The position numbers were made by a program, and so were the translations under genes. A DNA stretch of 64,000 nucleotides from Cordylochernes scorpioides (taxonomy: Eukaryota > Arthropoda > Arachnida > Pseudoscorpiones > Chernetidae), in assembly GCA_030710605.1 (NCBI GenBank), contig CP092882.1, positions 21,214,446 through 21,278,445 on the forward strand. The letters are read 5' to 3'. The notes below the pieces were generated by a model. That model was given only the letters and a program-made list of their open reading frames with translations, was not told where the DNA came from and made no database searches. This document shows, one piece after another, positions 1,421 through 45,803 of this stretch. How positions within the stretch are numbered: the first letter of the stretch is position 1; every line of letters starts with the position of its first letter.

Positions 1421-1540
1421 CATATTTCATATGTTAAAGACATCTATTCTTTTTTTTTTCACATGCGCAAGAATTCCAAATTATATATACTTAATATCAT
1501 AGGTTGAAAAATAAACTACTTCTATATATATATATATATA

Positions 1541-2028
1541 TAATAATAAATAGTTATTTAATTTTATAGTCCAGTTTTGTATTAAGATTATCTTCACTAT
1601 TATGATCATTTAAATTCAAATTATAAAATTTGTAAAATGTTATTAATTTGTAGATAGAGAGAGAAAAAAAAAAAAATTCTTTACTTCTACTACATCCTCA
1701 AGTTAATTATATATTTATAATTAATAACAATAAAAATTAACAACGTAACGTCTATTACATCGGCTTTTACACGTCATTCAGACATACTCTAATCCTATAT
1801 ATAGAATAATCGAAGAGAGAATATATATAATAGTTAGAAAAAAGAGAGAAAGACAGAACCATGCACTTTTAATCAAACTAATAATAAGGAAAAAAAAAAA
1901 AAAGAGTTTTATAAAGAAGGTAGATAAGATTGTTAGTATATATATATATTTTTTTTTATGATTTTATATTTTATCCTTTTTTTTTAAAGATTTTTAAAGG
2001 TTTTTTTATTTTATAATATGATTATAAA
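1541..2028 (-). repeat. Partial downstream unit (pseudo-LTR) of copy A
   Basis: Reverse complement of the 5' part of unit B (5756-6240), including the AAAAGTGCATGGTTCTGTC block and the CGTGTAAAAGCCGATG block. It stops at the TATATA tract at 1523-1541. It is the start of a second unit directly downstream of A, the same arrangement as B to C and C to D. Confidence 0.8.
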
Positions 2029-2159
2029 TAGTTGTATTTAGTAATATATCTATAGTATGAATTAACATTTGTTATAAGTTTGGATATTATGTTTTGAAAC
2101 CCTAATGGTAGACCAGACATACACAAAAAACTTTAAATTGAAATAAATTGGAAAAAGAG

Positions 2160-2243
2160 ATCTGCTGGAACGGGGATCTTCAGATAAAAATTCCAGCGAC
2201 ATTTCACCCCTTCTTTATTATGTCATAGATCTCTTTTAAACCG
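2160..2243 (-). ncRNA. Conserved pseudoknot candidate, copy A
   Basis: Reverse complement of the structure at 9819-9902: an outer 11-bp stem (AAAAGAGATCT with its complement), a 7-bp stem GCTGGAA/TTCCAGC, a small ATCT/AGAT hairpin, and GGGG/CCCC pairing that crosses the 7-bp stem. Present in all three units downstream of the coding region. The role is unknown; template recognition by the reverse transcriptase is one possibility. Confidence 0.45.
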
Positions 2244-2838
2244 GATTTTATGTGTTAATATTAAGTTGTTTCAGTGAAATATTTAAATGAACATATATAA
2301 CAGATACAAGTGTTAACAAATTCAAACTGTAAACCTACCTCGGCCGCAGCGTCCTCCATTGTGAATATCTATTTCTGGCTGACACATGTCGCGGGAGGGG
2401 AATGTTCCCCCACATTTCAAATTTAGACCATTTATTCAGAATTTTTTTGAACAACAAGAAAATTAAAGAAGAAAGGAAAAATAGTTAAGGGAAGAAAGCT
2501 AAATTTCATAATCTTTACAGCTAGTTATATCAAAATAACTGATTTAACGCTTATTCATCTTTTAATATTCCTTTAAAAAGGCAAATTATAAGAGTTTAAT
2601 AAAGCTATTAATTGTGCAAATTCACCTTTATTTAACTTCCATTTTCCTCCCCAGAAATTGGAGATTAAACAAAAATGAACTATATACTTTAACACTTTAA
2701 AAATCTTGTGAAAAAATCTTTTAATCAGTTATTTAATCAAAGTTTAATTAACTGTTAAAGATTATAAATTTGTATTAGTTAATATTAAGAGAAATTATAG
2801 AAAGTTGATTTCATAAATGGATATTTCCATTTATTTTT

Positions 2839-5262
2839 TTAAAAATATTTTATAATTGATATACTGTTGAAATATTTTACTTGTTTGATACTAAATTTGT
2901 TTTTAATAAATTCCATGTTTAAATTTTTAACATCTTCTATGAAATTATCTAATATATTATTTATTCTATAAAATCTTAGAAACTGACCATAATATATACC
3001 TTTACAGCAATTTAATGATATATTAGAATTCATATTACAGTATTTTATAATATTGAAATTATAATTACTCTTTTTATTATAAACTCTAACAGCATTATTT
3101 GTAAGGTCTATATTCAAGTCTAAAAAGTTAACTTTTTTGTTTCTATAAATTTTTTCATTGTTCTTAAGTTTCAAGTATTTAGGATATATTTCAGGTATTA
3201 ATTTTTTAAACAGTGGATTATTAAATATTATTATGTCATCTACATATCGGAATATTTGCCAATTAATATTATTTTGTAGAAAGTATTCTCTTTCGTACCA
3301 GAACAATATTAGATTTGCTAATAACGGACTAGAAGAAGTACCCATGGGAACGCCTTCTGATTGAATATATATTTTATTTTTAAATTCTATATAGTTAAAA
3401 TTTAAAAATGTTTCCAGTAGAGTTTTTGCTGTTTTAAGATCTAATTTAAATGTTTTATATCTGTTATGAATAATTTTAATGTAGAAAGTTTTGTCATTAA
3501 TGAATTCATTAAATAAATTGGTTATTTTATTATTTAGATCTCTTAAATTTATTTTAGAATATAGGTCCTCAAAGTCAAATGTGTGTACTGTTTCAATGTT
3601 TGTCCAATTGTTCATTAAATAATTAATGATTTTTTTATTTGAGTCGATAAATTTATAATTATATTTATTAGTTAATTTATTTATAATAAATTGTAGTGTT
3701 GAGGCTAATTGTATATCAATATTTTTTATGACTGAATTTATACCAGATGTGATTGTTCTGAAAGAAATAGGTTTTTTGTGTAGTTTAGGAATTATATAGA
3801 ACTTTGGTATGTTTGGATTTTTGTGGTTATTATAAATTTTTAGTGAATTTTCAACATTTTTGATGTCTTTTTTGATTTTTGTGCCTGTAGTTCTAGCAAA
3901 AGTGTATTTATGATTATTATCAATTTCCTTTTTTAGTATATCGTGGTATAGATTTTTACAAATTAAAGATAAATTATTGGAACATTTATCTATAGGAGTG
4001 ATAATATAGTCCTTCTGTAAATTAATTATATTTTCTTTAAAAGAAGGAATGTCTGAATTGGGTTTTGTGTATTTAAGTGTATTATTATAATAATTTATAA
4101 TTTCCTTTTTAATATTATGTTTCCATTCCAGAAAAGTAAATTCTGGAATACTGTATTTTATACTAGTTTTATTTATGAAAATATCTATATCTTTTAATAT
4201 AGATTTAATTGTATTATTATAATTGTGTTTAATTTGAGGTATATATTTATACCCTTTATTTAAAATTTCTTGATTTTCTGGATTTAAAAAAGAAAAGTTG
4301 CTAGTTAATATATGACCTGAGAACTTATATTTATCAATATAGTTGTTGCAATTACATTTAATTTTTTTAAAATTTGCCAAATTATTAATAAATTGGTTAT
4401 AATTGCAAACTAAATTACCTATATTTTTATTGTATCTCCAGATTGTTTTAAAATTTAAATTTTTTATAGGGAAAAGATTATTGATGATTTGGTTATTAAA
4501 AATATCATTAAATTTAATATGATTAAATAAATTGTTATTAAATTTAATGATAATATTAATGTTATTAGTAGTTTGTTTAATTTTTCTGTATTTAAAGATG
4601 TCGTGTGTGATATCTATTAATCTGTTAGTCAGATTATGAATTTTAATATATTCTATGAGTTTGATAAATTTATTATTATTTAGTTTAAATAATGTTTTAA
4701 TAAATTTATCGACGAAGTTGTTAGTGTACATTTGTTTTGGGTCCAGTAATTCTTCAAATTCAATGTAACCTAATTTATTTGTAGTTTTACCTCTAGTTTT
4801 ATTACGTTTAGTTTTAAATTCATTTTTTTTGTATTTGCAACTGATTTCATAAGTTGAAATTTCTTCTGTTTGTGGTTTGTATGTGTAGTTTAATTCGTCG
4901 TTAAGTCCATAAGGGAATAATGTGTTGTGTTTATAAATGTAGTTGTTTTCTAATAATAGTCGTTGTTTTTTGTTTTGACATATGTCTAGTATTTCTATCT
5001 TAAAGTTGTTAAAAGTATGTAATTGATTGTGTTCTTTCATATATATATTACCAATTGATTTTTTAGCGTGGTTTCTATGTAGGTTTATTCGTATATTTAA
5101 TGGATTACAAGTTTGTCCTATATATGATAGTTGACAAATTTGGCATGTTAATTTATAAATAGTATTCACTAATTTACAACTAGTTGTTTGAAAAGTGTCA
5201 TGGTTCTTAAGAGAGGGACAAGTTTGACAATTTTTTCTTAGGCAATTCTTAGCGAGTTTAAA
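2839..5262 (-). CDS. Naiad-type Penelope-like GIY-YIG / reverse transcriptase, copy A
   Basis: Retrotransposon polyprotein: nicking endonuclease plus reverse transcriptase. Numbered from the GTG at 5169 (776 codons), the GIY-YIG-like domain comes first: IY at 4-5, a CxxC pair C9/C12, YIG at 16-18, R27, catalytic-type E74 and GLN at 88-90. The reverse transcriptase follows: KLHK (462-465, typical of Penelope-like elements), FDFED (531-535, motif A), VPMGTSSSP (607-615) and YVDD (642-645). The frame is open without an ATG up to 5262, adding a Cys-rich stretch (CxxxxCxxC) that resembles the usual zinc-binding lead-in to this endonuclease, so I include it. Only this copy has both domains in one frame, thanks to an 8-A run. 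Its C-terminus is cut 18 codons short of B and C by an AA-to-TT change that makes a stop. Confidence 0.85.
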   Translation of the reverse strand, partial: FKLAKNCLRKNCQTCPSLKNHDTFQTTSCKLVNTIYKLTCQICQLSYIGQTCNPLNIRINLHRNHAKKSIGNIYMKEHNQLHTFNNFKIEILDICQNKKQRLLLENNYIYKHNTLFPYGLNDELNYTYKPQTEEISTYEISCKYKKNEFKTKRNKTRGKTTNKLGYIEFEELLDPKQMYTNNFVDKFIKTLFKLNNNKFIKLIEYIKIHNLTNRLIDITHDIFKYRKIKQTTNNINIIIKFNNNLFNHIKFNDIFNNQIINNLFPIKNLNFKTIWRYNKNIGNLVCNYNQFINNLANFKKIKCNCNNYIDKYKFSGHILTSNFSFLNPENQEILNKGYKYIPQIKHNYNNTIKSILKDIDIFINKTSIKYSIPEFTFLEWKHNIKKEIINYYNNTLKYTKPNSDIPSFKENIINLQKDYIITPIDKCSNNLSLICKNLYHDILKKEIDNNHKYTFARTTGTKIKKDIKNVENSLKIYNNHKNPNIPKFYIIPKLHKKPISFRTITSGINSVIKNIDIQLASTLQFIINKLTNKYNYKFIDSNKKIINYLMNNWTNIETVHTFDFEDLYSKINLRDLNNKITNLFNEFINDKTFYIKIIHNRYKTFKLDLKTAKTLLETFLNFNYIEFKNKIYIQSEGVPMGTSSSPLLANLILFWYEREYFLQNNINWQIFRYVDDIIIFNNPLFKKLIPEIYPKYLKLKNNEKIYRNKKVNFLDLNIDLTNNAVRVYNKKSNYNFNIIKYCNMNSNISLNCCKGIYYGQFLRFYRINNILDNFIEDVKNLNMEFIKNKFSIKQVKYFNSISIIKYF

Positions 5263-6790
5263 TTAACATAAAAGAGGTGCTAACACTAATATGTTTGTAG
5301 TTTTTTTTAGTTTTTTTAGTTTGTTATTCTTATGAATTTTTGAATATATTTTACTTAATTGTTTTTGTGGTGATAAAATTTATAATAAATTGAATAATTA
5401 ATCTATAAATATAGATATTACTGTTTGTTATCTGTTATATTTTTAAGAATAACTAATAAAAAAACATCTTTAAACTAACTAAACAATGAAAAAAACAAAA
5501 GTTCTGAAATTATTTTTTCTAGAATTACTTTTATAATTTAATTTTTAATAATCAAACAATGAAAGATAATTAAAATTTGTATGAAGATTTATTTATATTA
5601 GAATATCTAATATAATTTAATTTGTATATTATGTTATATATAAAAAATATATCATAGAGCAAGCTCATATGAATTAATATAGTGCAGAAACTATATAACA
5701 AAATTATAACAGTGATTCTAATTTTAAAACTTAAGGATCAAACTAGTAATCAAACTTATAATCATATTATAAAATAAAAAAACCTTTAAAAATCTTTAAA
5801 AAAAAAGGATAAAATATAAAATCATAAAAAAATATATATATATATACTAACAATCTTATCTACCTTCTTTATAAAACTCTTTTTTTTTTTTCCTTATTAT
5901 TAGTTTGATTAAAAGTGCATGGTTCTGTCTTTCTCTCTTTTTTCTAACTATTATATATATTCTCTCTTCGATTATTCTATATATAGGATTAGAGTATGTC
6001 TGAATGACGTGTAAAAGCCGATGTAATAGACGTTACGTTGTTAATTTTTATTGTTATTAATTATAAATATATAATTAATTTGAGGATGTAGTAGAAGTAA
6101 AGAATTTTTTTTTTTCTCTCTCTATCTACAAATTAATAACATTTTACATATTTTATAATTTGAATTTAAATGATCATAATAGTGAAGATAATCTTAATAC
6201 AAAACTGGACTATAAAATTAAATAACTATTTATTATTATAATTAATTTAGATTTAGCTTGCTAATCTAATCAAATCTAACTGATATAAGTTATCATTATT
6301 ATCAGTTTGATCCTTAAGTTTTAAAATTAGAATCACTGTTATAATTTTGTTATATAGTTTCTACACTATATTAATTCATATGAGCTTGCTCTATGATATA
6401 TTTTTATATATAACATAATATACAAATTAAATTATATTAGATATTCTAATATAAATAAATCTTCATACAAATTTTAATTATCTTTCATTGTTTGATTATT
6501 AAAAATTAAATTATAAAAGTAATTCTAGAAAAAATAATTTCAGAACTTTTGTTTTTTTCATTGTTTAGTTAGTTTAAAGATGTTTTTTTTTTATTAGTTA
6601 TTCTTAAAAATATAACAGATAACAAACAGTAATATCTATATATTTATAGATTAATTATTCAATTTATTATAAATTTTATCACCACAAAAACAATTAAGTA
6701 AAATATATTTAAAAATTCATAAGAATAACAAACTAAAAAAACTAAAAAAAAACTACAAACATATTAGTGTTAGCACTTCTTTTATGTTAA

Positions 6791-7234
6791 TTTAAACTCG
6801 CTAAGAATTGCCTAAGAAAAAATTGTCAAACTTGTCCCTCTCTTAAGAACCATGACACTTTTCAAACAACTAGTTGTAAATTAGTGAATACTATTTATAA
6901 ATTAACATGCCAAATTTGTCAACTATCATATATAGGACAAACTTGTAATCCATTAAATATACGAATAAACCTACATAGAAACCACGCTAAAAAATCAATT
7001 GGTAATATATATATGAAAGAACACAATCAATTACATACTTTTAACAACTTTAAGATAGAAATACTAGACATATGTCAAAACAAAAAACAACGACTATTAT
7101 TAGAAAACAACTACATTTATAAACACAACACATTATTCCCTTATGGACTTAACGACGAATTAAACTACACATACAAACCACAAACAGAAGAAATTTCAAC
7201 TTATGAAATCAGTTGCAAATACAAAAAAAAATGA
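6791..7234 (+). CDS. GIY-YIG domain frame of Penelope-like copy B
   Basis: N-terminal part of the retroelement protein, matching copy A residue for residue to its end. The usual call starts at a GTG (6884), which a nuclear gene would not normally use. The frame is open to 6791 without ATG and encodes a Cys-rich lead-in (CxxC then a Cys 20 residues on), so translation may begin after splicing or at a non-AUG codon. It terminates at a TGA right after a run of nine A (7223-7231); copy A has eight. The reverse transcriptase frame overlaps it by 32 bp. One A less would fuse the two. Confidence 0.75.
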   Translation, partial: FKLAKNCLRKNCQTCPSLKNHDTFQTTSCKLVNTIYKLTCQICQLSYIGQTCNPLNIRINLHRNHAKKSIGNIYMKEHNQLHTFNNFKIEILDICQNKKQRLLLENNYIYKHNTLFPYGLNDELNYTYKPQTEEISTYEISCKYKKK

Positions 7235-9269
7235 ATTTAAAACTAAACCTAATAAAACTAGAGGTAAAACTACAAATAAATTAGGTTACATTGAATTTGA
7301 AGAATTACTGGACCCAAAACAAATGTACACTAACAACTTCGTCGATAAATTTATTAAAACATTATTTAAACTAAATAATAATAAATTTATCAAACTCATA
7401 GAATATATTAAAATTCATAATCTGACTAACAGATTAATAGATATCACACACGACATCTTTAAATACAGAAAAATTAAACAAACTACTAATAACATTAATA
7501 TTATCATTAAATTTAATAACAATTTATTTAATCATATTAAATTTAATGATATTTTTAATAACCAAATCATCAATAATCTTTTCCCTATAAAAAATTTAAA
7601 TTTTAAAACAATCTGGAGATACAATAAAAATATAGGTAATTTAGTTTGCAATTATAACCAATTTATTAATAATTTGGCAAATTTTAAAAAAATTAAATGT
7701 AATTGCAACAACTATATTGATAAATATAAGTTCTCAGGTCATATATTAACTAGCAACTTTTCTTTTTTAAATCCAGAAAATCAAGAAATTTTAAATAAAG
7801 GGTATAAATATATACCTCAAATTAAACACAATTATAATAATACAATTAAATCTATATTAAAAGATATAGATAGTTTCATAAATAGAACTAGTATAAAATA
7901 CAGTATTCCAGAATTTACTTTTCTGGAATGGAAACATAATATTAAAAAGGAAATTATAAATTATTATAATAATACACTTAAATACACAAAACCCAATTCA
8001 GACATTCCTTCTTTTAAAGAAAATATAATTAATTTACAGAAGGACTATATTATCACTCCTATAGATAAATGTTCCAATAATTTATCTTTAATTTGTAAAA
8101 ATCTATACCACGATATACTAAAAAAGGAAATTGATAATAATCATAAATACACTTTTGCTAGAACTACAGGCACAAAAATCAAAAAAGACATCAAAAATGT
8201 TGAAAATTCACTAAAAATTTATAATAACCACAAAAATCCAAACATACCAAAGTTCTATATAATTCCTAAACTACACAAAAAACCTATTTCTTTCAGAACA
8301 ATCACATCTGGTATAAATTCAGTCATAAAAAATATTGATATACAATTAGCCTCAACACTACAATTTATTATAAATAAATTAACTAATAAATATAATTATA
8401 AATTTATCGACTCAAATAAAAAAATCATTAATTATTTAATGAACAATTGGACAAACATTGAAACAGTACACACATTTGACTTTGAGGACCTATATTCTAA
8501 AATAAATTTAAGAGATCTAAATAATAAAATAACCAATTTATTTAATGAATTCATTAATGACAAAACTTTCTACATTAAAATTATTCATAACAGATATAAA
8601 ACATTTAAATTAGATCTTAAAACAGCAAAAACTCTACTGGAAACATTTTTAAATTTTAACTATATAGAATTTAAAAATAAAATATATATTCAATCAGAAG
8701 GCGTTCCCATGGGTACTTCTTCTAGTCCGTTATTAGCAAATCTAATATTGTTCTGGTACGAAAGAGAATACTTTCTACAAAATAATATTAATTGGCAAAT
8801 ATTCCGATATGTAGATGACATAATAATATTTAATAATCCACTGTTTAAAAAATTAATACCTGAAATATATCCTAAATACTTGAAACTTAAGAACAATGAA
8901 AAAATTTATAGAAACAAAAAAGTTAACTTTTTAGACTTGAATATAGACCTTACAAATAATGCTGTTAGAGTTTATAATAAAAAGAGTAATTATAATTTCA
9001 ATATTATAAAATACTGTAATATGAATTCTAATATATCATTAAATTGCTGTAAAGGTATATATTATGGTCAGTTTCTAAGATTTTATAGAATAAATAACAT
9101 ATTAGATAATTTCATAGAAGATGTTAAAAATTTAAACATGGAATTTATTAAAAACAAATTTAGTATCAAACAAGTAAAATATTTCAACAGTATATCAATT
9201 ATAAAATATTTAAAAAAAAATAAATGGAAATATCCATTTATGAAATCAACTTTCTATAATTTCTCTTAA
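7203..9269 (+). CDS. Reverse transcriptase frame of Penelope-like copy B
   Basis: Carries the rest of the retroelement protein, 688 codons. Residues: KLHK at 356-359, FDFED at 425-429 (catalytic Asp 426), VPMGTSSSP from 501, YVDD at 536-539 (catalytic Asp 538/539), then FLDLNID, typical of the Penelope-like palm/thumb border. All catalytic residues are present. The start shown is only the first ATG in frame (MKSVAN), inside the overlap; the real protein probably begins in the upstream GIY-YIG frame. The C-terminus is 18 residues longer than in copy A and identical in copy C. Confidence 0.85.
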   Translation: MKSVANTKKNEFKTKPNKTRGKTTNKLGYIEFEELLDPKQMYTNNFVDKFIKTLFKLNNNKFIKLIEYIKIHNLTNRLIDITHDIFKYRKIKQTTNNINIIIKFNNNLFNHIKFNDIFNNQIINNLFPIKNLNFKTIWRYNKNIGNLVCNYNQFINNLANFKKIKCNCNNYIDKYKFSGHILTSNFSFLNPENQEILNKGYKYIPQIKHNYNNTIKSILKDIDSFINRTSIKYSIPEFTFLEWKHNIKKEIINYYNNTLKYTKPNSDIPSFKENIINLQKDYIITPIDKCSNNLSLICKNLYHDILKKEIDNNHKYTFARTTGTKIKKDIKNVENSLKIYNNHKNPNIPKFYIIPKLHKKPISFRTITSGINSVIKNIDIQLASTLQFIINKLTNKYNYKFIDSNKKIINYLMNNWTNIETVHTFDFEDLYSKINLRDLNNKITNLFNEFINDKTFYIKIIHNRYKTFKLDLKTAKTLLETFLNFNYIEFKNKIYIQSEGVPMGTSSSPLLANLILFWYEREYFLQNNINWQIFRYVDDIIIFNNPLFKKLIPEIYPKYLKLKNNEKIYRNKKVNFLDLNIDLTNNAVRVYNKKSNYNFNIIKYCNMNSNISLNCCKGIYYGQFLRFYRINNILDNFIEDVKNLNMEFIKNKFSIKQVKYFNSISIIKYLKKNKWKYPFMKSTFYNFS

Positions 9270-9818
9270 TATTAACTAATACAAATTTATAATCTTTAAC
9301 AGTTAATTAAACTTTGATTAAATAACTGATTAAAAGATTTTTTCACAAGATTTTTAAAGTGTTAAAGTATAATAGTTCATTTTTGTTTAATCTCCAATTT
9401 CTGGGGAGGAAAATGGAAGTTAAATAAAGGTGAATTTGCACAATTAATAGCTTTATTAAACTCTTATAATTTGCCTTTTTAAAGGAATATTAAAAGATGA
9501 ATAAGCGTTAAATCAGTTATTTTGATATAACTAGCTGTAAAGATTATGAAATTTAGCTTTCTTCCCTTAACTATTTTTCCTTTCTTCTTTAATTTTCTTG
9601 TTGTTCAAAAAAATTCTGAATAAATGGTCTAAATTTGAAATGTGGGGGAACATTCCCCTCCCGCGACATGTGTCAGCCAGAAATAGATATTCACAATGGA
9701 GGACGCTGCGGCCGAGGTAGGTTTACAGTTTGAATTTGTTAACACTTGTATCTGTTATATATGTTCATTTAAATATTTCACTGAAACAACTTAATATTAA
9801 CACATAAAATCCGGTTTA

Positions 9819-9902
9819 AAAGAGATCTATGACATAATAAAGAAGGGGTGAAATGTCGCTGGAATTTTTATCTGAAGATCCCCGTTCCAGCAGATCTCTT
9901 TT
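9819..9902 (+). ncRNA. Conserved pseudoknot candidate, copy B
   Basis: In order: outer stem AAAAGAGATCT, GGGG, GAAATGTC, stem GCTGGAA, hairpin ATCT-GA-AGAT, CCCC, TTCCAGC, AGATCTCTTTT. GGGG can pair with CCCC across the GCTGGAA/TTCCAGC stem. It lies about 550 bp past the stop codon and about 125 bp before the start of the next unit. Confidence 0.5.
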
Positions 9903-11066
9903 TCCAATTTATTTCAATTTAAAGTTTTTTGTGTATGTCTGGTCTACCATTAGGGTTTCAAAACATAATATCCAAACTTATAACAAATGTTAATTCATAC
10001 TATAGATATATTACTAAATACAACTATTTATAATCATATTATAAAATAAAAAAACCTTTAAAAATCTTTTTAAAAAAAAGGATAAAATATAAAATCATAA
10101 AAATATATATATATATATATATACTAACAATCTTATCTACCTTCTTTATAAAACTCTTTTTTTTTTTCCTTATTATTAGTTTGATTAAAAGTGCATGGTT
10201 CTGTCTTTCTCTCTTTTTTCTAACTATTATATATATTCTCTCTTCGATTATTCTATATATAGGATTAGAGTATGTCTGAATGACGTGTAAAAGCCGATGT
10301 AATAGACGTTACGTTGTTAATTTTTATTGTTATTAATTATAAATATATAATTAACTTGAGGATGTAGTAGAAGTAAAGAATTTTTTTTTTCTCTCTCTCT
10401 ATCTACAAATTAATAACATTTTACAAATTTTATAATTTGAATTTAAATGATCATAATAGTGAAGATAATCTTAATACAAAACTGGACTATAAAATTAAAT
10501 AACTATTTATTATTATAATTAATTTAGATTTAGCTTGCTAATCTAATCAAATCTAACTGATATAAGTTATCATTATTATAAGTTTGTTCCTTAAGTTTTA
10601 AAATTAGAATCACTGTTATAATTTTGTTATATAGTTTCTACACTATATTAATTCATATGAGCTTGCTCTATGATATATTTTTTATATATAACATAATATA
10701 CAAATTAAATTATATTAGATATTCTAATATAAATAAATCTTCATACAAATTTTAATTATCTTTCATTGTTTGATTATTAAAAATTAAATTATAAAAGTAA
10801 TTCTAGAAAAAATAATTTCAGAACTTTTGTTTTTTTCATTGTTTAGTTAGTTTAAAGATGTTTTTTTTATTAGTTATTCTTAAAAATATAACAGATAACA
10901 AACAGTAATATCTATATATTTATAGATTAATTATTCAATTTATTATAAATTTTATCACCACAAAAACAATTAAGTAAAATATATTTAAAAATTCATAAGA
11001 ATAACAAACTAAAAAAACTAAAAAAAAACTACAAACATATTAGTGTTAGCACCTCTTTTATGTTAA

Positions 11067-11510
11067 TTTAAACTCGCTAAGAATTGCCTAAGAAAAAATT
11101 GTCAAACTTGTCCCTCTCTTAAGAACCATGACACTTTTCAAACAACTAGTTGTAAATTAGTGAATACTATTTATAAATTAACATGCCAAATTTGTCAACT
11201 ATCATATATAGGACAAACTTGTAATCCATTAAATATACGAATAAACCTACATAGAAACCACGCTAAAAAATCAATTGGTAATATATATATGAAAGAACAC
11301 AATCAATTACATACTTTTAACAACTTTAAGATAGAAATACTAGACATATGTCAAAACAAAAAACAACGACTATTATTAGAAAACAACTACATTTATAAAC
11401 ACAACACATTATTCCCTTATGGACTTAACGACGAATTAAACTACACATACAAACCACAAACAGAAGAAATTTCAACTTATGAAATCAGTTGCAAATACAA
11501 AAAAAAATGA
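11067..11510 (+). CDS. GIY-YIG domain frame of Penelope-like copy C
   Basis: Same protein as the corresponding frame of copy B: IY, CxxC, YIG, R, E and GLN motifs are all present. It has the same AUG-less open extension (from 11067; GTG at 11160) and the same nine-A run before the TGA. The endonuclease would nick the target to prime reverse transcription, if the family behaves as other GIY-YIG Penelope-like elements. Confidence 0.75.
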   Translation, partial: FKLAKNCLRKNCQTCPSLKNHDTFQTTSCKLVNTIYKLTCQICQLSYIGQTCNPLNIRINLHRNHAKKSIGNIYMKEHNQLHTFNNFKIEILDICQNKKQRLLLENNYIYKHNTLFPYGLNDELNYTYKPQTEEISTYEISCKYKKK

Positions 11511-13545
11511 ATTTAAAACTAAACCTAATAAAACTAGAGGTAAAACTACAAATAAATTAGGTTACATTGAATTTGAAGAATTACTGGACCCAAAACAAAT
11601 GTACACTAACAACTTCGTCGATAAATTTATTAAAACATTATTTAAACTAAATAATAATAAATTTATCAAACTCATAGAATATATTAAAATTCATAATCTG
11701 ACTAACAGATTAATAGATATCACACACGACATCTTTAAATACAGAAAAATTAAACAAACTACTAATAACATTAATATTATCATTAAATTTAATAACAATT
11801 TATTTAATCATATTAAATTTAATGATATTTTTAATAACCAAATCATCAATAATCTTTTCCCTATAAAAAATTTAAATTTTAAAACAATCTGGAGATACAA
11901 TAAAAATATAGGTAATTTAGTTTGCAATTATAACCAATTTATTAATAATTTGGCAAATTTTAAAAAAATTAAATGTAATTGCAACAACTATATTGATAAA
12001 TATAAGTTCTCAGGTCATATATTAACTAGCAACTTTTCTTTTTTAAATCCAGAAAATCAAGAAATTTTAAATAAAGGGTATAAATATATACCTCAAATTA
12101 AACACAATTATAATAATACAATTAAATCTATATTAAAAGATATAGATAGTTTCATAAATAGAACTAGTATAAAATACAGTATTCCAGAATTTACTTTTCT
12201 GGAATGGAAACATAATATTAAAAAGGAAATTATAAATTATTATAATAATACACTTAAATACACAAAACCCAATTCAGACATTCCTTCTTTTAAAGAAAAT
12301 ATAATTAATTTACAGAAGGACTATATTATCACTCCTATAGATAAATGTTCCAATAATTTATCTTTAATTTGTAAAAATCTATACCACGATATACTAAAAA
12401 AGGAAATTGATAATAATCATAAATACACTTTTGCTAGAACTACAGGCACAAAAATCAAAAAAGACATCAAAAATGTTGAAAATTCACTAAAAATTTATAA
12501 TAACCACAAAAATCCAAACATACCAAAGTTCTATATAATTCCTAAACTACACAAAAAACCTATTTCTTTCAGAACAATCACATCTGGTATAAATTCAGTC
12601 ATAAAAAATATTGATATACAATTAGCTTCAACACTACAATTTATTATAAATAAATTAACTAATAAATATAATTATAAATTTATCGACTCAAATAAAAAAA
12701 TCATTAATTATTTAATGAACAATTGGACAAACATTGAAACAGTACACACATTTGACTTTGAGGACCTATATTCTAAAATAAATTTAAGAGATCTAAATAA
12801 TAAAATAACCAATTTATTTAATGAATTCATTAATGACAAAACTTTCTACATTAAAATTATTCATAACAGATATAAAACATTTAAATTAGATCTTAAAACA
12901 GCAAAAACTCTACTGGAAACATTTTTAAATTTTAACTATATAGAATTTAAAAATAAAATATATATTCAATCAGAAGGCGTTCCCATGGGTACTTCTTCTA
13001 GTCCGTTATTAGCAAATCTAATATTGTTCTGGTACGAAAGAGAATACTTTCTACAAAATAATATTAATTGGCAAATATTCCGATATGTAGATGACATAAT
13101 AATATTTAATAATCCACTGTTTAAAAAATTAATACCTGAAATATATCCTAAATACTCGAAACTTAAGAACAATGAAAAAATTTATAGAAACAAAAAAGTT
13201 AACTTTTTAGACTTGAATATAGACCTTACAAACAATGCTGTTAGAGTTTATAATAAAAAGAGTAATTATAATTTCAATATTATAAAATACTGTAATATGA
13301 ATTCTAATATATCATTAAATTGCTGTAAAGGTATATATTATGGTCAGTTTCTAAGATTTTATAGAATAAATAATATATTAGATAATTTCATAGAAGATGT
13401 TAAAAATTTAAACATGGAATTTATTAAAAACAAATTTAGTATCAAACAAGTAAAATATTTCAACAGTATATCAATTATAAAATATTTAAAAAAAAATAAA
13501 TGGAAATATCCATTTATGAAATCAACTTTCTATAATTTCTCTTAA
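11479..13545 (+). CDS. Reverse transcriptase frame of Penelope-like copy C
   Basis: 688 codons, differing from copy B at one residue I can see (Leu to Ser in YPKYSKLKNN). KLHK, FDFED, VPMG and YVDD are intact. B and C share changes absent from A (Arg to Pro shortly after the A-run, Ile to Ser and Lys to Arg near residues 236-240), so they descend from a common source after splitting from A, or have exchanged sequence. Confidence 0.85.
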   Translation: MKSVANTKKNEFKTKPNKTRGKTTNKLGYIEFEELLDPKQMYTNNFVDKFIKTLFKLNNNKFIKLIEYIKIHNLTNRLIDITHDIFKYRKIKQTTNNINIIIKFNNNLFNHIKFNDIFNNQIINNLFPIKNLNFKTIWRYNKNIGNLVCNYNQFINNLANFKKIKCNCNNYIDKYKFSGHILTSNFSFLNPENQEILNKGYKYIPQIKHNYNNTIKSILKDIDSFINRTSIKYSIPEFTFLEWKHNIKKEIINYYNNTLKYTKPNSDIPSFKENIINLQKDYIITPIDKCSNNLSLICKNLYHDILKKEIDNNHKYTFARTTGTKIKKDIKNVENSLKIYNNHKNPNIPKFYIIPKLHKKPISFRTITSGINSVIKNIDIQLASTLQFIINKLTNKYNYKFIDSNKKIINYLMNNWTNIETVHTFDFEDLYSKINLRDLNNKITNLFNEFINDKTFYIKIIHNRYKTFKLDLKTAKTLLETFLNFNYIEFKNKIYIQSEGVPMGTSSSPLLANLILFWYEREYFLQNNINWQIFRYVDDIIIFNNPLFKKLIPEIYPKYSKLKNNEKIYRNKKVNFLDLNIDLTNNAVRVYNKKSNYNFNIIKYCNMNSNISLNCCKGIYYGQFLRFYRINNILDNFIEDVKNLNMEFIKNKFSIKQVKYFNSISIIKYLKKNKWKYPFMKSTFYNFS

Positions 13546-14094
13546 TATTAACTAATACAAATTTATAATCTTTAACAGTTAATTAAACTTTGATTAAATA
13601 ACTGATTAAAAGATTTTTTCACAAGATTTTTAAAGTGTTAAAGTATATAGTTCATTTTTGTTTAATCTCCAATTTCTGGGGAGGAAAATGGAAGTTAAAT
13701 AAAGGTGAATTTGCACAATTAATAGCTTTATTAAACTCTTATAATTTGCCTTTTTAAAGGAATATTAAAAGATGAATAAGCGTTAAATCAGTTATTTTGA
13801 TATAACTAGCTGTAAAGATTATGAAATTTAGCTTTCTTCCCTTAACTATTTTTCCTTTCTTCTTTAATTTTCTTGTTGTTCAAAAAAATTCTGAATAAAT
13901 GGTCTAAATTTGAAATGTGGGGGAACATTCCCCTCCCGCGACATGTGTCAGCCAGAAATAGATATTCACAATGGAGGACGCTGCGGCCGAGGTAGGTTTA
14001 CAGTTTGAATTTGTTAACACTTGTATCTGTTATATATGTTCATTTAAATATTTCACTGAAACAACTTAATATTAACACATAAAATCCGGTTTAA

Positions 14095-14178
14095 AAGAGA
14101 TCTATGACATAATAAAGAAGGGGTGAAATGTCGCTGGAATTTTTATCTGAAGATCCCCGTTCCAGCAGATCTCTTTTT
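14095..14178 (+). ncRNA. Conserved pseudoknot candidate, copy C
   Basis: Same sequence as the structure in copy B, at the same distance from the stop codon. Identity among copies means no covariation can be read here. Confidence 0.45.
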
Positions 14179-14302
14179 CCAATTTATTTCAATTTAAAGT
14201 TTTTTGTGTATGTCTGGTCTACCATTAGGGTTTCAAAACATAATATCCAAACTTATAACAAATGTTAATTCATACTATAGATATATTACTAAATACAACT
14301 AT

Positions 14303-14911
14303 TTATAATCATATTATAAAATAAAAAAACCTTTAAAAATCTTTAAAAAAAAAAGGATAAAATATAAAATCATAAAAAAATATATATATATATACTAACA
14401 ATCTTATCTACCTTCTTTATAAAACTCTTTTTTTTTTTTCCTTATTATTAGTTTGATTAAAAGTGCATGGTTCTGTCTTTCTCTCTTTTTTCTAACTATT
14501 ATATATATTCTCTCTTCGATTATTCTATATATAGGATTAGAGTATGTCTGAATGACGTGTAAAAGCCGATGTAATAGACGTTACGTTGTTAATTTTTATT
14601 GTTATTAATTATAAATATATAATTAACTTGAGGATGTAGTAGAAGTAAAGAATTTTTTTTTTTCTCTCTCTATCTACAAATTAATAACATTTTACAAATT
14701 TTATAATTTGAATTTAAATGATCATAATAGTGAAGATAATCTTAATACAAAACTGGACTATAAAATTAAATAACTATTTATTATTATAATTAATTTAGAT
14801 TTAGCTTGCTAATCTAATCAAATCTAACTGATATAAGTTATCATTATTATCAGTTTGATCCTTAAGTTTTAAAATTAGAATCACTGTTATAATTTTGTTA
14901 TATAGTTTCTA

Positions 14912-14916
<5 letters not shown>
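14303..14916 (+). repeat. Partial downstream unit D of the Penelope-like array
   Basis: Repeats the first about 610 bp of units B and C, then ends inside the leader at ACACTATA against a (TA)n tract (14914-14946). It has no coding part. Confidence 0.8.
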
Positions 14917-14946
<30 letters not shown>

Positions 14947-14949
<3 letters not shown>

Positions 14950-15324
14950 TATACATTATATCATTAGTTAACATATATAAAAAGTGGAATATGTTATCTT
15001 CATATTTTATTATAATTTTTGTTTATAATATATTAATTTAATTAGGCCTATAAAAACACCCCCTTAACTAGTTTCCAGATGTCGCTAACTATAACCCTAA
15101 GTTATTAGTTAATTAGGGGGGCACAAGACTAATTTGGTGAATAAAAAGCGAGAGAAATGGATACTAGTTTACCATAATTAATTAAGGTTAATGGGGTCTT
15201 GTTATAGTATTAGTTAACGTAAGTATGCGCATAGTCGCTGCAATAACTCTTCGAAAATATTTTTTATTTCTATAATTTAACCCCCCCCACACATACATAT
15301 ATGTTTTGAAAATAGAGCAATCCA
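14947..15324. other. AT-rich spacer
   Basis: No open frame or recognised family. Contains a run of eight C (15283-15290), close to the end of the Penelope-like array. Confidence 0.3.
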
Positions 15325-15552
15325 TAAATAAATCTTTAATTAAAAAGGCATATATTGGATCAAAATATCATTTATTTTATCAATTATTCAGTTGACTGAA
15401 CGCCAACTTTTATCAAGGTATTATAACGTATTAATGTGTGTAAACAACAGGTGTTATAACACCTTGATTAAGGTTGGCGTTCAGCCAAATGAAATATTGA
15501 TAAAATAAATGATAATTTGATCCAATATATGCCACTTTAATTAAAATATTTA
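15325..15552. mobile_element. Foldback element (MITE-like palindrome)
   Basis: Arms of about 90 bp are inverted copies: GCATATATTGGATC on the left and GATCCAATATATGC on the right, with AACGCCAAC/GTTGGCGTT further in. The spacer is about 30 bp. No coding capacity. Confidence 0.65.
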
Positions 15553-16889
15553 TATGTGTGTTCGTAGTTTTACATTAATATGTGAGCAGGAAAGACACGA
15601 TATTGTAAATTAAAACCTGACTTATTTATTCAAAGGGGAGTGGCTATTCCATTTAACTACTTAACTATTTTTAACTATATGCAAATATGGTGTCAGATAA
15701 AAGCTACAGTACAGATAGAAAGCAGTGATGAATTTCTCTGAGTTGTAAAATACCTATTTAGATACTATGGTGCATTTCAAACAATTTTGAAATTATAAAG
15801 ACAGAGGGTCTTTAAAAGGAGGAAGTATCCCACTCTGGAATAATACTCAAATGCACTTTTCACTGAGCCATTTCATCAAAAGAGATTGAAAATTCCTGGA
15901 AAAAAACATTGTTCACGGGAGAATAGATGGGAAAATGACAGAAAGAAGAAGGCTCAGAAGATGATTTCCTGACCTAAGTAAGAGCCATCACTAGACTGAC
16001 CTTGAGAGAACTGTCATTAGAATGAACGAGTTGGAAAAAGGCCATCAGCCGGATTACAAAATTCTAGTAATGGATAAACGAAGAAATTACTGGAAGTCTC
16101 TTAATAAACTTTTATAGAGGTAGACACAGAAGAAAGCTGAATTTAACTATCACGGTAATCAATATAATCGTACTTGAAAATTTCTTAAGTGACCAAACTG
16201 CTAACGTCGCGACCTGTTTCTTTATCAAATTCTTCTCTTAGCTACTTACGTACCAGGAAGCCCTTCACCAGGCTTTCAAACTATGTATAATTTGTGTATG
16301 TGCATTGTTTTGAAGCCTATTGAAGGCTTATTGGCCCGAAATCTTCCCAATCATAATTTGCTAATAAATTTCGTCGAACATATAAACGAAGTTTTGTTTT
16401 AGTTTTTATTGATTTTGATCACTTATTGAAATACTTAGACCCTAAGCGACTCTCTCTAAAGCTTTCATTGCCACAGGAAGAGAAGGCGAATGACTAAACA
16501 GGTTGTCACATGGTATTGTCCAATAACCATGCGAAACATAAAATCTGTGGAAACCGGACAATATTTTATGTCGCCATATTAGAACTATGACATCTTCACG
16601 CATTTAAAAACATATAGAGTTCTATAATTACCTTTGATGTGAAATTGATTCAATCACTTCGTCTCAAAAAGTCAAAACCTTTGATAAAACCTTATTCACT
16701 GCATCCTATTGAATCAATAGAATTGAGATCCTAAGAATAGTAAAATTTCAACTCTGTACCGCGCTGATTTACTCTGTTTATACGAGTCCTTTGTTGGACT
16801 TCAGGAATTGGACATTTAGATTCTGTGTTTGGGCCAAAATTAATTAAACATTTTTATAGCTGTCATCAATTACATGTTTTTTAAAATTT
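15553..16889. other. Unclassified sequence
   Basis: Mixed composition, no long open frame. The part at 15770-16400 is less AT-rich and may be old retroelement or MITE sequence, but I recognise no motif. Confidence 0.3.
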
Positions 16890-19436: not shown

Positions 19437-20290
19437 TTTATTCCCATCTAGCTTCTTATCCAGTCCATAGTTTAATTCTTATTCCTGCTGTTCTCTCTTT
19501 CTATTCACATTTTTCTCTTGAGCGTTCTTTATCAAACATCATATTATTCCTATCTAGCTTCTTATCCAGTCCATAGTTTAATTCTTATTCCTGCTGTTCT
19601 CTCTTTCTATTCACATTTTTCTCTTGAGCGTTCTTTATCAAACATCATATTATTCCTATCTAGCTTCTTATCCAGTCCATAGTTTAATTCTTATTCCTGC
19701 TGTTCTCTCTTTCTATTCACATTTTTCTCTTGAGCGTTCTTTATCAAACATCATATTATTCCTATCTAGCTTCTTATCCAGTCCATAGTTTAATTCTTAT
19801 TCCTGCTGTTCTCTCTTTCTATTCACATTTTTCTCTTGAGCGTTCTTTATCAAACATCATATTATTCCTATCTAGCTTCTTATCCAGTCCATAGTTCAAT
19901 TCTTCTTCCTACTGTTCTCTCTTTCTATTCACATTTTTCTCTTGAGCGTTCTTTATCAAACATCATATTATTCCTATCTAGCTTCTTATCCATTCCATAG
20001 TTAAATTCTTCTTCCTACTGTTCTCTCTTTCTATTCACATTTTTCTCTTGAGCGTTCTTTATCAAACATCATATTATTCCTATCTAGCTTCTTATCCAGT
20101 CCATAGTTCAATTCTTCTTCCTACTGTTCTCTCTTTCTATTCACATTTTTCTCTTGAGCGTTCTTTATCAAACATCATATTATTCCTATCTAGCTTCTTA
20201 TCCAGTCCATAGTTCAATTCTTCTTCCTACTGTTCTCTCTTTCTATTCACATTTTTCTCTTGAGCGTTCTCTATCAAACACCATATTCTT
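19437..20290. repeat. 106-bp minisatellite, about 8 copies
   Basis: The motif TTGAGCGTTC recurs at exact 106-bp steps (AGCG at 19521, 19627, 19733, 19839, 19945, 20051, 20157, 20263). Copies differ mainly by TTATTCCTGC versus TTCTTCCTAC, with the variants in two blocks (first half, second half). The array sits inside a longer pyrimidine-rich repeat also seen at 16890. Confidence 0.9.
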
Positions 20291-21105
20291 CTTCCTACCG
20301 TTATATTTTCTTCAGAGCTGTCTCCAAAAGTCTATTTTTTCTTACGATTCACTCTATTCTAATCCGGGGGTTGGGGCAATCGATGTTAAAATCGAAGAGA
20401 CACCTCTTCCGTCAAAATAGACACTAAAACCGAGCACTGTCATTCTCTGCCATCTACAGACATGTATCAATGACTAAGTTACAGCTACAGCTATAGTAAC
20501 TTCTAAAGACCCAACTGAAGGCTATAGTTTCGTTCTGTGGCCCTCGGTCCAGGAGGCCTTCGAGCCCCTGAAATTCACACGAATTTAAAACCTGAAGTTC
20601 TGGTCCTCAAGTGGGTATTCTGAAAATTTAACAATAAAATTATATATACAAATATATTTAATACATCGATAAATCCCTTTTATTCAAAATAAATCTTGCA
20701 TAAGCCTGTCAGATTAATTTATCAATCAGGAGATTTGCAACACGATTCTTTACTAGATGAAATAAAATACCATTTTTTCGCGTTAAATTTCTAAGCGCGC
20801 ATATTTAACTAAACGATTGCGCCACAATACCAGCTCATTGTCGCTTCTTCGCCTATTTGAATCCTTGGAAGTGAACAACGCGCGAGAGAGGAAATAAATG
20901 ATTTTTATATATTTTAAAAAGGAAAGGTGTTCTTTATTCCACATGACCACCATACTCTTTCATGGGCGTGTAACATATAAAGAGTTTAAAATTAAACTTT
21001 GGAGTGTAAATACTAAAATGGAAGAGAGTCAAACAAATTATCACAATACAGATGAGTAGACTTGTCACTTATAATACCAAATTCTGTACAAATATATAAA
21101 TACAT
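20291..21105. other. Decayed HH-2-like fragment and unclassified sequence
   Basis: 20385-20425 has CACCTCTTCCGTCAAAATAGAC, an HH-2 arm motif. The rest shows no recognised family. Confidence 0.3.
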
Positions 21106-42477: not shown

Positions 42478-43094
42478 AGATATTTTCTCGAGAGACTTCA
42501 CACTGAATGAGCTAAATTCATCAATAAAAAAATCTAAGAGGTCACTAAGAGATAATCTAATATTTGGTCAAATGATTAAACACTTTGAAGACAAAGCTAA
42601 TAAACAACTCCTACGAATACTGAACATTTCATGGTAAACTGGTGAACTACCAAAGAATTGGAAGATATCAATTACTGTGCCAATACTGAAACCAAACAAA
42701 GATGCCAAGGAATCCAAGAACTATCGGCCAATTGCTCTCACCAGCATACTTTGTGAAATAACAGAACGAATTATCCACTCTAGGCTCATAGTCTGGCTCA
42801 CTAACAATAATAAAATAAACTTCTACCAAACTGCCTATAGATCCCAGCACTGTACGACTGATCAACTGTTCTACTTCTGTCAATCAATAATAGATTCTTT
42901 CCAGGAAAAACCGCCAAAGAAGACCACAGCTATATTCCTTGAAATGACCTCAGCTTTTATCGAGTGTGGAGGGAGAAATTACGTGAAAAGCTGCACAACA
43001 TCGGAGTAAGAGGAGAAACCTTAACCTGGATTGCAGACTTCTTATGGGGAAGAAGGTTAAAGGTTTGGGTCAATTTTCCAAGGAAGGAAGGACG
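42478..43094 (+). pseudogene. Jockey-like LINE, reverse transcriptase fingers and palm part
   Basis: FTLNELNSSIKKSK, PILKPNKDAKESKNYRPIALTS (fingers), QTAYRSQHCTTDQL, TTAIFLEMTSAF (motif A, catalytic Asp replaced by Glu) and VWREKLREKLHNIGVRG. It stops abruptly at 43094 where an LTR begins; the YADD part is absent from this copy. Confidence 0.8.
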
Positions 43095-43918
43095 TGTGAT
43101 ACTGCAGTCCTGGATCTTCCCAGTTGGTCTCGAGGACCGCGCCATCACCATCTCCTAAGCGGCGAAGTACGCGATCTAGGTATTCATCGTAGATCGCAAA
43201 ATGCGTGGTGTCGCTGGAGACCCACTGGCGATTCTCCACTAAACTCTGCAGCGCTGGCAGAGGCGCCATATTCATTGTACATAGTGTATGTGATGATTTA
43301 AGATCATGGAATTGTTGTAAATAGTCCAGATATCTACTACCACATGTTCCACCACGTAATTGTATATAACTTCTTATTTACTGCAAATAGAAAGCCTCAA
43401 CTAACATCAATCTGTACCGCGTAAGAATCTAATAAAGTATAGCAACTGTACAGATAGAAGGAATGGAGACTAACAGGAGAAAATTAAAGTTAAAACTAAT
43501 CAGGCTTAGGTGAAAATAGGATAGAAGGCCTAGCAAACCCAGTCCAACTTTTACGAGGTCGTGGCCCTCCTGGATAATAAAGCTTCCCCCCCTGTTTACG
43601 TCAGAAAAGAGCAGTGACCTGTTCGGACCCAGCTCAGCTATAAAAGGAGGCCCCGATCCTCAGTTAGTCAGTCCTTAGTTAGTCTTCGTTCCAGTCCCTG
43701 TCCACCGGACGCTCCGATAAAAGGCAAACCCTTTCCTGCCAGAAATCTCCTCGTCCCATTCCTTCTTGACGTTCAGACGCTTCTAAGTGGAATCTCTATT
43801 TGCTTATTTCACCTTTGGCCCAGCTATGTCGCCTTCCACCACGACTGCACGGTAGAGTTGACATCGAGGTTCGTCTAGCATCAGGTAACACTGGTCCCAG
43901 AGGTCCCAAGATATCACA
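43095..43918 (+). mobile_element. Solo LTR inside the LINE
   Basis: Begins TGTGATACTG and ends AGATATCACA (TGTGATA/TATCACA inverted ends). A TATA box, CTATAAAAGG, lies at 43638-43647, with an AATAAAG at 43577. Flanking 4-mers GACG and TGTA do not match, so either the duplication has been lost or the junction arose by recombination; the LINE part between the two flanks is missing too. Confidence 0.6.
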
Positions 43919-43939
43919 TGTATATAATGCATATTATAT

Positions 43940-44338
43940 TTTTTTAAATAGTGCAGACTGTGCACTTTTTATGTATTGACAAGATGTCAATAAAATTATT
44001 TTAACTGTCATTGATGAGGAATTGGAATTTTCAAAACACATAATTAGCACCTCAAATAGAGCTACCAGAAAACTAAACATTCTGAGATGGCTATGTGGAA
44101 CAAATTGGGGAGAAAAACCCAGAATTCTCAGAACAACATATATCACCTTAATAAGGCCGATAATGATATATGCAACACCGGTCTGGGCTCCCTCAAGCTC
44201 ATCAATAAAAGTAAGACTAGACAGTGTTCAAGCAAAGGCGGCCAAAATAATCACTGGTGCTGTTTCATCCACCAACAATTTGAAAATTCAGAGAGAATGT
44301 GTTCTAGACCTACTCGCTCGAAAGCAGAAGACAAAATA
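43940..44338 (+). pseudogene. Jockey-like LINE, thumb region
   Basis: Resumes the same LINE after the LTR: NSADCALF, LEFSKHI, RATRKLNILRWLCGTNWGEK, RPIMIYATPVWAPSS, VQAKAAKIITGAVSSTN. It ends where an R1-like LINE begins. Confidence 0.7.
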
Positions 44339-44346
44339 AAAACAAC

Positions 44347-44937
44347 TTGGATCGGCACTTCGGAAACGAGGAACCAGAGGACGAGATCTCTCTGACCACT
44401 TGTGGTTTGGTGGATCCGCCCTTTTCTGAGAATGAGGTGAAACTGACGGCTTTCAAGTTCGGGAAAAGGAAATCTCCTGGTCCCGAAGGGATCGATAACA
44501 CGGTCGTGAAAGCCCTGTTAAGAATGAACCCATCACTTCTTGCCAGGTTTTTCAATAGGTGCCTGGACACTGGTACTTTTCATGAGGCATGGAAGGTTGC
44601 CCGAGTAGTGCTTCTCGAAAAGTCTGGTAGAAAGAGTAATTCTCCTAATGATTATCGTCCGCTTTCTTTACTAGTGTGTCTAGGTATGGTCCTGGATAGC
44701 CTACTAGCTCAGCGACTGAAGCACTGGCTAGAGAGTAATGAGCTCCTTTCCTCTTTCCAACATGGTTTTAGGGAAGGGAACTTCACAACCACGGCTCTAA
44801 ACGAGGTGTTAGAAGGGGTTGAGATGGGCTTAAATAAGGGTGCTTTGGTTCTTCTCGTGGCCCTGGACATTGATGGCGCGTTCAACTCCATGAGCTGGAA
44901 CAAGCTGATGAAATTTGATGGACATGGGTTGTCCTGA
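44347..44937 (+). pseudogene. R1-like LINE, reverse transcriptase first half
   Basis: Begins in the region before the fingers: FSENEVKLTAFKFGKRKSPG, PEGIDN, EAWKVARVVLLEKSG, NDYRPLSLLVCLGMVLD, QHGFREGNFTTTAL, VLLVALDIDGAFNSMSW (motif A with catalytic Asp). GC content is clearly higher than around it. No endonuclease part precedes it, so it is 5'-truncated. A one-base shift near 44930 moves reading to the next frame. Confidence 0.8.
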
Positions 44938-45358
44938 TAATTTGTGCAGCTTGGTTCGTGACTTCCTGAGGGATAGACGGATTAGCCTCAGTTTTGGTGG
45001 GCGGAAGTTGGAAAGAAACTGTGCTAGGGGTTGCCCCCAGGGCTCTTGCTGCGGACCTATTATGTGGAATATCCTGGTAAACACCGTTTTCCAGGAGGAG
45101 CTACCTGAGGGAGCCTGGCTGGTTCTCTATGCTGACGACCAGTTCCTCATCATTGAGGCTGCTTCGAGAGCGAAGGTTGAGAAGTGTGTTGAAGCTTCTC
45201 TCCAAATACTCTCGAACTGGGCCCATGACTCTGGCCTTAAGTTCAATGTCTCCAAAACTAAAGCCCTCAGCATTAAGCCTAGGGACATAAGAACTAAAAG
45301 GAAAGGGATCAAATGGGAGCACAAGGACGAAAGGACGGAAGGTAGCGTTGGTCAATAG
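44915..45358 (+). pseudogene. R1-like LINE, reverse transcriptase palm
   Basis: GCPDNLCSLVRDFLRDRR, RGCPQGSCCGPIMWNILV (motif B), LVLYADDQFLIIEA (YADD catalytic pair intact), LKFNVSKTKAL. Continues the preceding frame after the shift. Confidence 0.8.
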
Positions 45359-45518
45359 GATGACCATCCTGGGGGTGGTCATTGATGACAAGATGGGTTG
45401 GCAATACCAGGCGGAGGAGATGGTGACGAGAGGCAGGGAGGCGTTGTGTAGGCCTGTCCTGGTTGGCTCTCAATAGGGGGGGGGGACGGTTCTATTTTTA
45501 CGAACCTCTGCCTCTCCT

Positions 45519-45803
45519 GTGTCGAGCCAATCCTGCTATAACAGGGATCAGAAGGTGGCAAAAACTCTAGATAGCGTGCAGAGGACAGCGGCACTCAGAA
45601 TCTTAGGGGGATATCGCACTACCAGCAGTGAGGCCTTTTTGGTCCTCGCTGGGCTTATTCCCCTGGGGTTGAAACTAGAGGAGGAGACCATCAGACAGAA
45701 GATCTGGGAGAACAGAGAAGATGCCCTGGGACTTGAAGCGGGTGCCCTGGAATGGAAGAGGGACCCAAGGAAGCCTCCGCAGTGGTTGCCAAAGTGGAAT
45801 TGA
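45519..45803 (+). pseudogene. R1-like LINE, thumb region
   Basis: KVAKTLDSVQRTAALRILGG, YRTTSSEAFLVLAGLIPLGL, LEEETIRQ: the usual post-palm sequence of R1/jockey-group LINEs. Confidence 0.65.

Follow-up and report, generated by a model that had tools for sequence, protein, structure and literature searches.

Paired fixed ends suggest that a permuted Penelope-like element of Cordylochernes scorpioides inserts as two primed cDNAs joined head to head

The window analyzed here is a 64,000-nucleotide stretch of the pseudoscorpion Cordylochernes scorpioides (C20:21214446-21278445 of a 2.62-Gb genome assembly in 24 contigs), and near its left end it carries an array of a Penelope-like element. Repeat and BLAST comparison divided the array, at ~1540-14918, into copy A on the minus strand, copies B and C on the plus strand, and a partial copy D, also on the plus strand. 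Copy C (window 10028-14302, 4275 bp) was utilized as the reference unit, with unit position 1 at 10028. The copies are spaced 4271-4278 bp apart, giving a unit of ~4275 bp. Ends and arms are named below by the unit position at which they stop, 490 or 621. The features of the array are the following:

1523-1541, no strand: left target (TA)n tract; the outer end of copy A (unit 490) is at ~1540
1540-5755, minus strand: copy A, the 490 arm of the insertion, from BLAST comparison
5745-5762, no strand: head-to-head junction of the arms, at a short common sequence
5756-10027, plus strand: copy B, first unit of the 621 arm, with its frame shifted at the A-run 7223-7231
10028-14302, plus strand: copy C, the reference unit, with the A-run frameshift as in B
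10517, plus strand: unit position 490 within the array, putative reverse-transcription start site 1
10648, plus strand: unit position 621 within the array, putative reverse-transcription start site 2
14303-14918, plus strand: partial unit D, with its outer end at unit ~621
14915-14961, no strand: right target (TA)n tract

The array is one insertion of the Penelope-like element. The long copies A, B, and C were 99.0-99.4% identical by BLAST. With simple-sequence positions masked, the A arm differed from the B-C-D arm at 8 of 3611 sites in matching copies, and at 7 of 3611 when the last copy was compared at each position. These values bear out the original prediction, made from the window alone, of a young head-to-head plus tandem array. 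Three full-length copies, two in tandem and one inverted, had also been described; the layout was recovered, but copy A, which covers unit ~546 to 490, is ~56 bp short of a whole unit. The B-C-D arm begins at unit ~1, runs through two complete units, and goes on to unit ~621. As had been proposed, both outer ends are element 3′ ends that enter a partial next unit, at 490 in copy A and ~621 in D, and both abut (TA)n.

Further copies of the family were found with two probes: a 2.1-kb probe gave at least 49 genome matches at 97-100% identity, and a 598-bp probe gave at least 40 at 98-100%. Thirty loci of ~5 kb each were fetched via the 2.1-kb probe (L010-L039). A minus arm followed by a plus arm was present in 11 of them, and the arms join at differing unit positions (L013, L021, L022, L023, L027, L032 and L034, which hold one junction, L035 and L036, which hold the same junction in two places, L037, and L038). 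No head-to-head junction was seen inside the ~5-kb stretch at the remaining 19. Twenty stretches, representing 21 of the 40 listed matches to the 598-bp probe, were also read. Five contained internal tandem copies (L044, L045, L048, L052, and L053), and the other 15, among them the diverged L047 and L051 at its left end, ended at unit 621 or blurred there into TA (L040, L056, and L057). The arms of L029 and L031 are interrupted by what appear by eye to be nested DNA transposons, and the element continues in L092 and L093.

Six 621-ended insertions were read inward, and the opposite end was 490 in five. For the sixth, at C1:59 Mb, the stretch stopped five bases short of 490; the next bases are TA, and an exact 490 end is listed there. 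Nine more insertions with known junctions were followed to their predicted ends; the intervening DNA was partly read, and an end at the predicted place was taken as continuity. Seven of these had one 490 and one 621 end (C1:201, C6:64.4, C22:30.3, C15:6.5, C23:16.7, C3:155, and C21:23.0), and the other two (C16:54.2 and C13:53.4) gave an end on one side only, at 621, with unrelated DNA where the opposite end had been predicted. Thus, with the window included, all 14 individually resolved insertions had one 490 and one 621 end, seven having been chosen for a 621 end and seven regardless of their ends. Single ends whose partners were not individually sought were of the 490 type at C1:46.7 and C21:25.5 and of the 621 type at C14:32.4, with further ones at L040, L046, L047, L049, L050, L054, L056, and L057.

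Both types of end were counted genome-wide. There were 1570 exact 621 ends joined to TA (796 forward, 774 reverse) and 1125 exact 490 ends joined to TA (564 forward, 561 reverse); the control patterns, each read backwards, gave 0 and 0. Pairing was scored in a sample drawn from the first 100 listed places of each type, covering C1 to 180.45 Mb, with all 100 ends of type 621 and 76 of type 490 (the 24 490 ends beyond this were left out). The sample held 57 outward-facing neighbor pairs within 20 kb: 54 were 490/621, three were 621/621, and none were 490/490. The 54 discordant pairs occurred in both orders (32 as 621-then-490, 22 as 490-then-621), and 0 of 100000 label shuffles matched this number, the maximum being 44. 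Four neighbors had other orientations, all same-strand. The pairs at C1:59 and C1:89.6 Mb are also among the 14 resolved insertions. One 621/621 pair, at 178.32 Mb, resolved into two 490/621 insertions that share a TA tract. In 15 of the 57 pairs, less than 530 bp separated the ends, which makes very small two-ended insertions common in the sampled stretch of C1.

The outer ends that were read had been picked regardless of TA, and 40 of the 41 adjoin a TA tract, L047 being too diverged to say. At I_C8 and L056, the ends adjoin the same host repeat (85% over 197 bp). This repeat starts directly after TA tracts of very different lengths at the two places, indicating that at these places the tract was already there and does not stem from the enzyme. 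The sequence of the target strand would not be able to pick between the start sites, since TA tracts are self-complementary. The 490/621 asymmetry probably lies in the RNA-protein complex. Separate insertions stacked in one TA tract, with their ends facing across TA, were seen at L072, L075, L095, and L097, which indicates that a TA tract stays a target after it has been hit.

We consider it likely that this Penelope-like element inserts via two primed cDNAs, one per start site, that are joined head to head. The enzyme would open both strands of a (TA)n microsatellite, and the exposed 3′ ends would serve as primers at internal positions of the element RNA, so that reverse transcription begins at unit 490 from one of them and at unit 621 from the other. 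The distance over which the two cDNAs extend toward each other would vary and sometimes exceed two units, which we propose is because the RNA derives from tandem copies. The far ends of the cDNAs would then be joined, often at a short common sequence, so that the insertion is head to head and has an element 3′ end on each outer side. The fixed ends, their nearly obligate pairing among the sampled insertions, the variable junctions, the TA flanks, and the arms that could not have templated each other are observed, and from these we infer the steps of cutting, priming, and joining. The earlier expectation that the array would be informative on integration was strongly supported by the end, pairing, and arm data from the host genome.

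Several results weigh against insertion by two primed cDNAs. In the C1 sample, 62 of the 176 ends had no exact partner within 20 kb. The exact 490 pattern overlooks the variant end of L067 and L069, so some 490 ends and pairs go uncounted. The 621/621 pair at 5.85 Mb is genuine (L096), and the 621/621 candidate at 109.66 Mb is 17 kb wide, with both arms continuing through the kilobase read. Eight of 40 unpaired 621 ends were inspected, and one of these, L103, is apparently one-armed, as its 5′ end joins non-element DNA without an inverted arm. The TA tracts on both sides mask any target-site duplication. Also, the enzyme of PAc, the Poseidon/Penelope of Anolis, uses the start sites in the same way on both strands in vitro (PMC11167929). 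The other inspected ends were of three kinds: L102 and L109 do have a 490 partner, next to a short or diverged TA tract; L104 and L108 show a head-to-head junction, and their partner ends lie beyond the stretch read; and L105-L107 were ambiguous in the stretches read.

The arms themselves bear on a different explanation, fold-back self-priming, in which the second arm is made by copying a single cDNA, or an antisense template, that has folded on itself. It was proposed for Penelope elements of Adineta vaga from palindromes at inverted junctions (PMC3846280). By arithmetic from coordinates, nine of the 14 resolved insertions have a 621 arm that exceeds the 490 arm in length, so the 490 arm falls within its range, and these nine do not decide between fold-back and two primings. 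In the other five (C8:2.06, C3:111, and C18:55.9, which were fully read, and C1:201 and C21:22.97, which were judged by coordinates), it is the 490 arm that extends further in the 5′ direction, and the 621 arm carries positions 491-621, which are absent from the 490 arm. Because each arm holds sequence that the other lacks, neither arm of these five insertions can have been copied from the other. Two insertions of roughly 160 bp have disjoint arms, 621-513 with 444-490 in L098 and 490-383 with 571-621 in L099. The five insertions, L098, and L099 contradict fold-back, and in these cases, where it can be told, the arms appear to have been independently primed. Fold-back also offers no reason for 490 at one end and 621 at the other.

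The likeness between arms gave a more mixed picture. Arms of the same insertion were closer to each other than the median to other insertions in 17 of 18 rows (L035 and L036 being one junction in two places), and some arm of another insertion was closer still in 10 of the 18. Both arms carry variants private to the insertion in 4 of the 10 insertions displayed, as fold-back would have it: the window (919, 2028, 3754, and 3955), L037 (three), L027 (two), and C23 (one). The window-arm difference at 2600 was also found in an L037 arm. Later gene conversion between arms could contribute to this likeness. The C8 arms differ from each other at 9 of 622 sites, yet the C8 621 arm differs from the window 490 arm at 1 of 623, which speaks against fold-back; the C8 490 arm has variants in common with L037. 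Because of the nine C8 differences, two RNAs or a template switch would be needed at least sometimes. These comparisons suggest that the two arms of an insertion often, though not always, share a source locus and perhaps a single RNA. Overall, we regard fold-back as improbable.

A narrower version of the two-cDNA model is that one RNA is used twice, by a dimeric enzyme with two start sites, each target strand taking one in concerted priming. This would explain the absent 490/490 pairs and why arms within one insertion are mostly closer to each other than to the typical other insertion. The C8 arms count against it, and we put it forward tentatively, as a possibility that is rather doubtful.

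Nicked target DNA is the primer both in L1 twin priming and in R2 target-primed reverse transcription, and L1 twin priming gives inverted 5′ segments joined at short homology. The inverted junctions seen here resemble those of L1 in often lying at short homology. The 17 junctions ranged from 6 common bases to 27 bases of filler, and the 12 with zero or more common bases had a mean of 2.75 compared to 0.99 for random joins. This excess is only suggestive because the overlaps are BLAST estimates and the five junctions with filler were excluded from the mean. In L1-type twin priming, two primers would act on one RNA, and the second could anneal anywhere within it. However, the outer end of the inverted arm was fixed at 490 or 621 in all 14 resolved insertions, and no position other than these two was seen among the 41 ends read, although the unit holds 48 TATAT sites. 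L1 and R2 have one fixed 3′ end per insertion, whereas here there are two. Twin priming is therefore very improbable as the source of the second arm.

The paired arms might also have arisen when one TA tract was hit twice independently, or when old copies recombined. The stacked insertions described above show that separate insertions in one tract occur, but these are tail to tail with TA kept between the elements, whereas at the 17 head-to-head junctions any filler is no longer than 27 bases and nothing resembles the flanking TA tracts. The ends pair as 490/621 in 54 of the 57 C1 pairs, and we give these origins very little credence. Finally, although inverted and tandem repeats are error-prone and runs of N are present at two fetched places (L015 with L094; L080), a palindromic misassembly of collapsed tandem copies is hardly credible: many loci whose flanks and junctions differ share the architecture, and the ~160-bp insertions L098 and L099, short enough for single reads, have it too.

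The coding frame and the predicted RNA features of the array are the following:

2842-5262, minus strand: open endonuclease-reverse transcriptase (EN-RT) frame of copy A, 807 codons, with no ATG before GIY-YIG
4819-5262, minus strand: GIY-YIG endonuclease region, PF01541 (Pfam)
2842-4263, minus strand: reverse transcriptase region, PF00078 (Pfam)
13935-14000, plus strand: GC-rich patch with an ATG and a GT donor-like site, in an element of ~20% GC
14095-14177, plus strand: strong predicted hairpin with two loops able to pair (by eye), after the GC-rich patch

The predicted domain order, GIY-YIG first and then reverse transcriptase, was supported by Pfam matches when the two regions were searched separately. 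PF01541 matched residues 34-114 of the N-terminal 148 (E 8e-07, 29.7 bits against a cut-off of 22.6), and PF00078 (RVT_1) matched the C-terminal 474 residues above its curated cut-off (E 1.5e-09). The unsplit 801- and 688-residue frames matched no Pfam family at E up to 1. Since GIY-YIG precedes the reverse transcriptase, the element is a permuted Penelope-like element. The Penelope-like reverse transcriptase clade is the sister of telomerase; the best PDB matches of the reverse transcriptase, all non-significant, were a group II intron-type reverse transcriptase (E 0.18) and telomerase reverse transcriptases (E 0.47-0.55). The PDB search with the endonuclease region returned chance-level matches only (E 0.45 and 2). 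A single-sequence structure prediction of the 807-residue frame had a mean predicted local distance difference test (pLDDT) score of 32.3 and was not used. Two cysteine pairs, CQTC and CQIC, were found around the GIY-YIG domain in the translation.

A GIY-YIG endonuclease in the reverse transcriptase frame is a Penelope-like trait, and here this EN-RT frame is uninterrupted in copy A only, which has a shortened C-terminus. In B and C, one extra A (a run of 9 compared to 8) causes a frameshift between the endonuclease and reverse transcriptase domains. Among the copies read, some from overlapping loci, the A-run length was 8 in 27, 9 in 6, and 10 in 2. Variants of the reverse transcriptase frame common to at least two insertions were 10 synonymous, 11 nonsynonymous, and 1 stop, and the singletons were 19 synonymous, 47 nonsynonymous, and 1 stop; the random expectation is 1095:4697:337 in the same order. 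This suggests that the reverse transcriptase frame is under constraint. In the endonuclease frame, the variants in common were only 1 synonymous and 1 nonsynonymous.

The GC-rich patch could be a promoter, or a first exon that splicing joins to the endonuclease frame in the following unit, and its ATG and GT are mostly, not wholly, kept among copies. The hairpin, possibly an RNA structure, matched no Rfam family. A hammerhead ribozyme in the pseudo-long terminal repeat (pLTR) is common, not universal, in Penelope-like elements, and none was found in the array with Rfam. A hammerhead candidate around CTGAAGA at 14147, the sole CTGANGA core of B, C, and D, was dropped because no hammerhead fold could be drawn by eye. 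The Rfam scan of the window returned one tRNA and no match in the array at gathering scores, and the scan of 9300-15100 at E up to 5 gave only a TA-rich chance match, far under the family cut-off. A search for relatives in viral contigs confirmed none.

Other features lie around the array. Two self-complementary stretches flank it (1133-1426 and 15328-15553, 92% and 82% palindromic) and resemble hairpin-type short transposons. Further along are a minisatellite at 19438-20291 (8.1 copies of a 106-bp unit, 98% matches), disrupted frames of long interspersed nuclear element type on both strands at 42600-50350 (named by eye from translations as reverse transcriptase and RNase H-like), and a tRNA gene or tRNA-derived repeat on the plus strand at 59788-59858 (Rfam RF00005, 55 bits).

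Permuted Penelope-like elements with GIY-YIG ahead of the reverse transcriptase, named Naiad/Chlamys, were reportedly described by Craig and colleagues in 2021 (Mol Biol Evol 38:5005). They reportedly resemble the element here in having GIY-YIG before the reverse transcriptase and cysteine pairs around it. Naiad, the name which the original prediction favored, is a candidate label suggested by the domain order.

Tandem and partial-tandem copies, head-to-head inverted repeats, and a tail on one end were all found here and are Penelope-like traits (PMC11167929 and PMC3846280). The Penelope families of Adineta vaga have inverted terminal repeats arranged head to head, one of which may bear a 31-bp tail, as well as tandem and partial-tandem copies and one 5′ junction by microhomology, all of which have likenesses in the present family (PMC3846280). 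There, they are explained by self-priming, probably on an antisense template, and target-site duplications were seen; the disjoint arms here contradict such copying. The purified enzyme of PAc, a canonical Penelope-like element, cuts and extends both strands and initiates at two adjacent internal sites, with the interval between them being the genomic ‘tail’ (PMC11167929). Tandem copies, an AT-rich target, and two internal start sites are likenesses to PAc, and the cutting and extension of both strands by PAc fits insertion by two primed cDNAs. In contrast, the PAc endonuclease is C-terminal, its starts are within the open reading frame, and a ribozyme is present (PMC11167929), whereas here the start-site interval is 131 bp, lies upstream of the endonuclease frame, and nearly always one site is used per end. 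The 490 and 621 ends correspond to the pLTR end without and with the ‘tail’ of other Penelope elements (PMC11167929 and PMC3846280).

Self-priming was proposed in 2013 (PMC3846280), and cutting and extension of both strands with two start sites were shown in 2024 (PMC11167929). The main text of the latter does not discuss inverted copies or the one-end position of the tail. No published two-ended model or TA targeting by Penelope-like elements was found in a literature search that did not extend to subscription papers or the 2021 clade paper. What is new is that both start sites are used together, one per end, in nearly all sampled insertions of a large permuted family. With more than 1000 exact ends of each kind in one genome, the sample points to two primed ends, one per start site. 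This bears on how Penelope-like elements, a poorly understood class, enter chromosomes, and it would be a natural process that writes DNA into a simple repeat from both ends.

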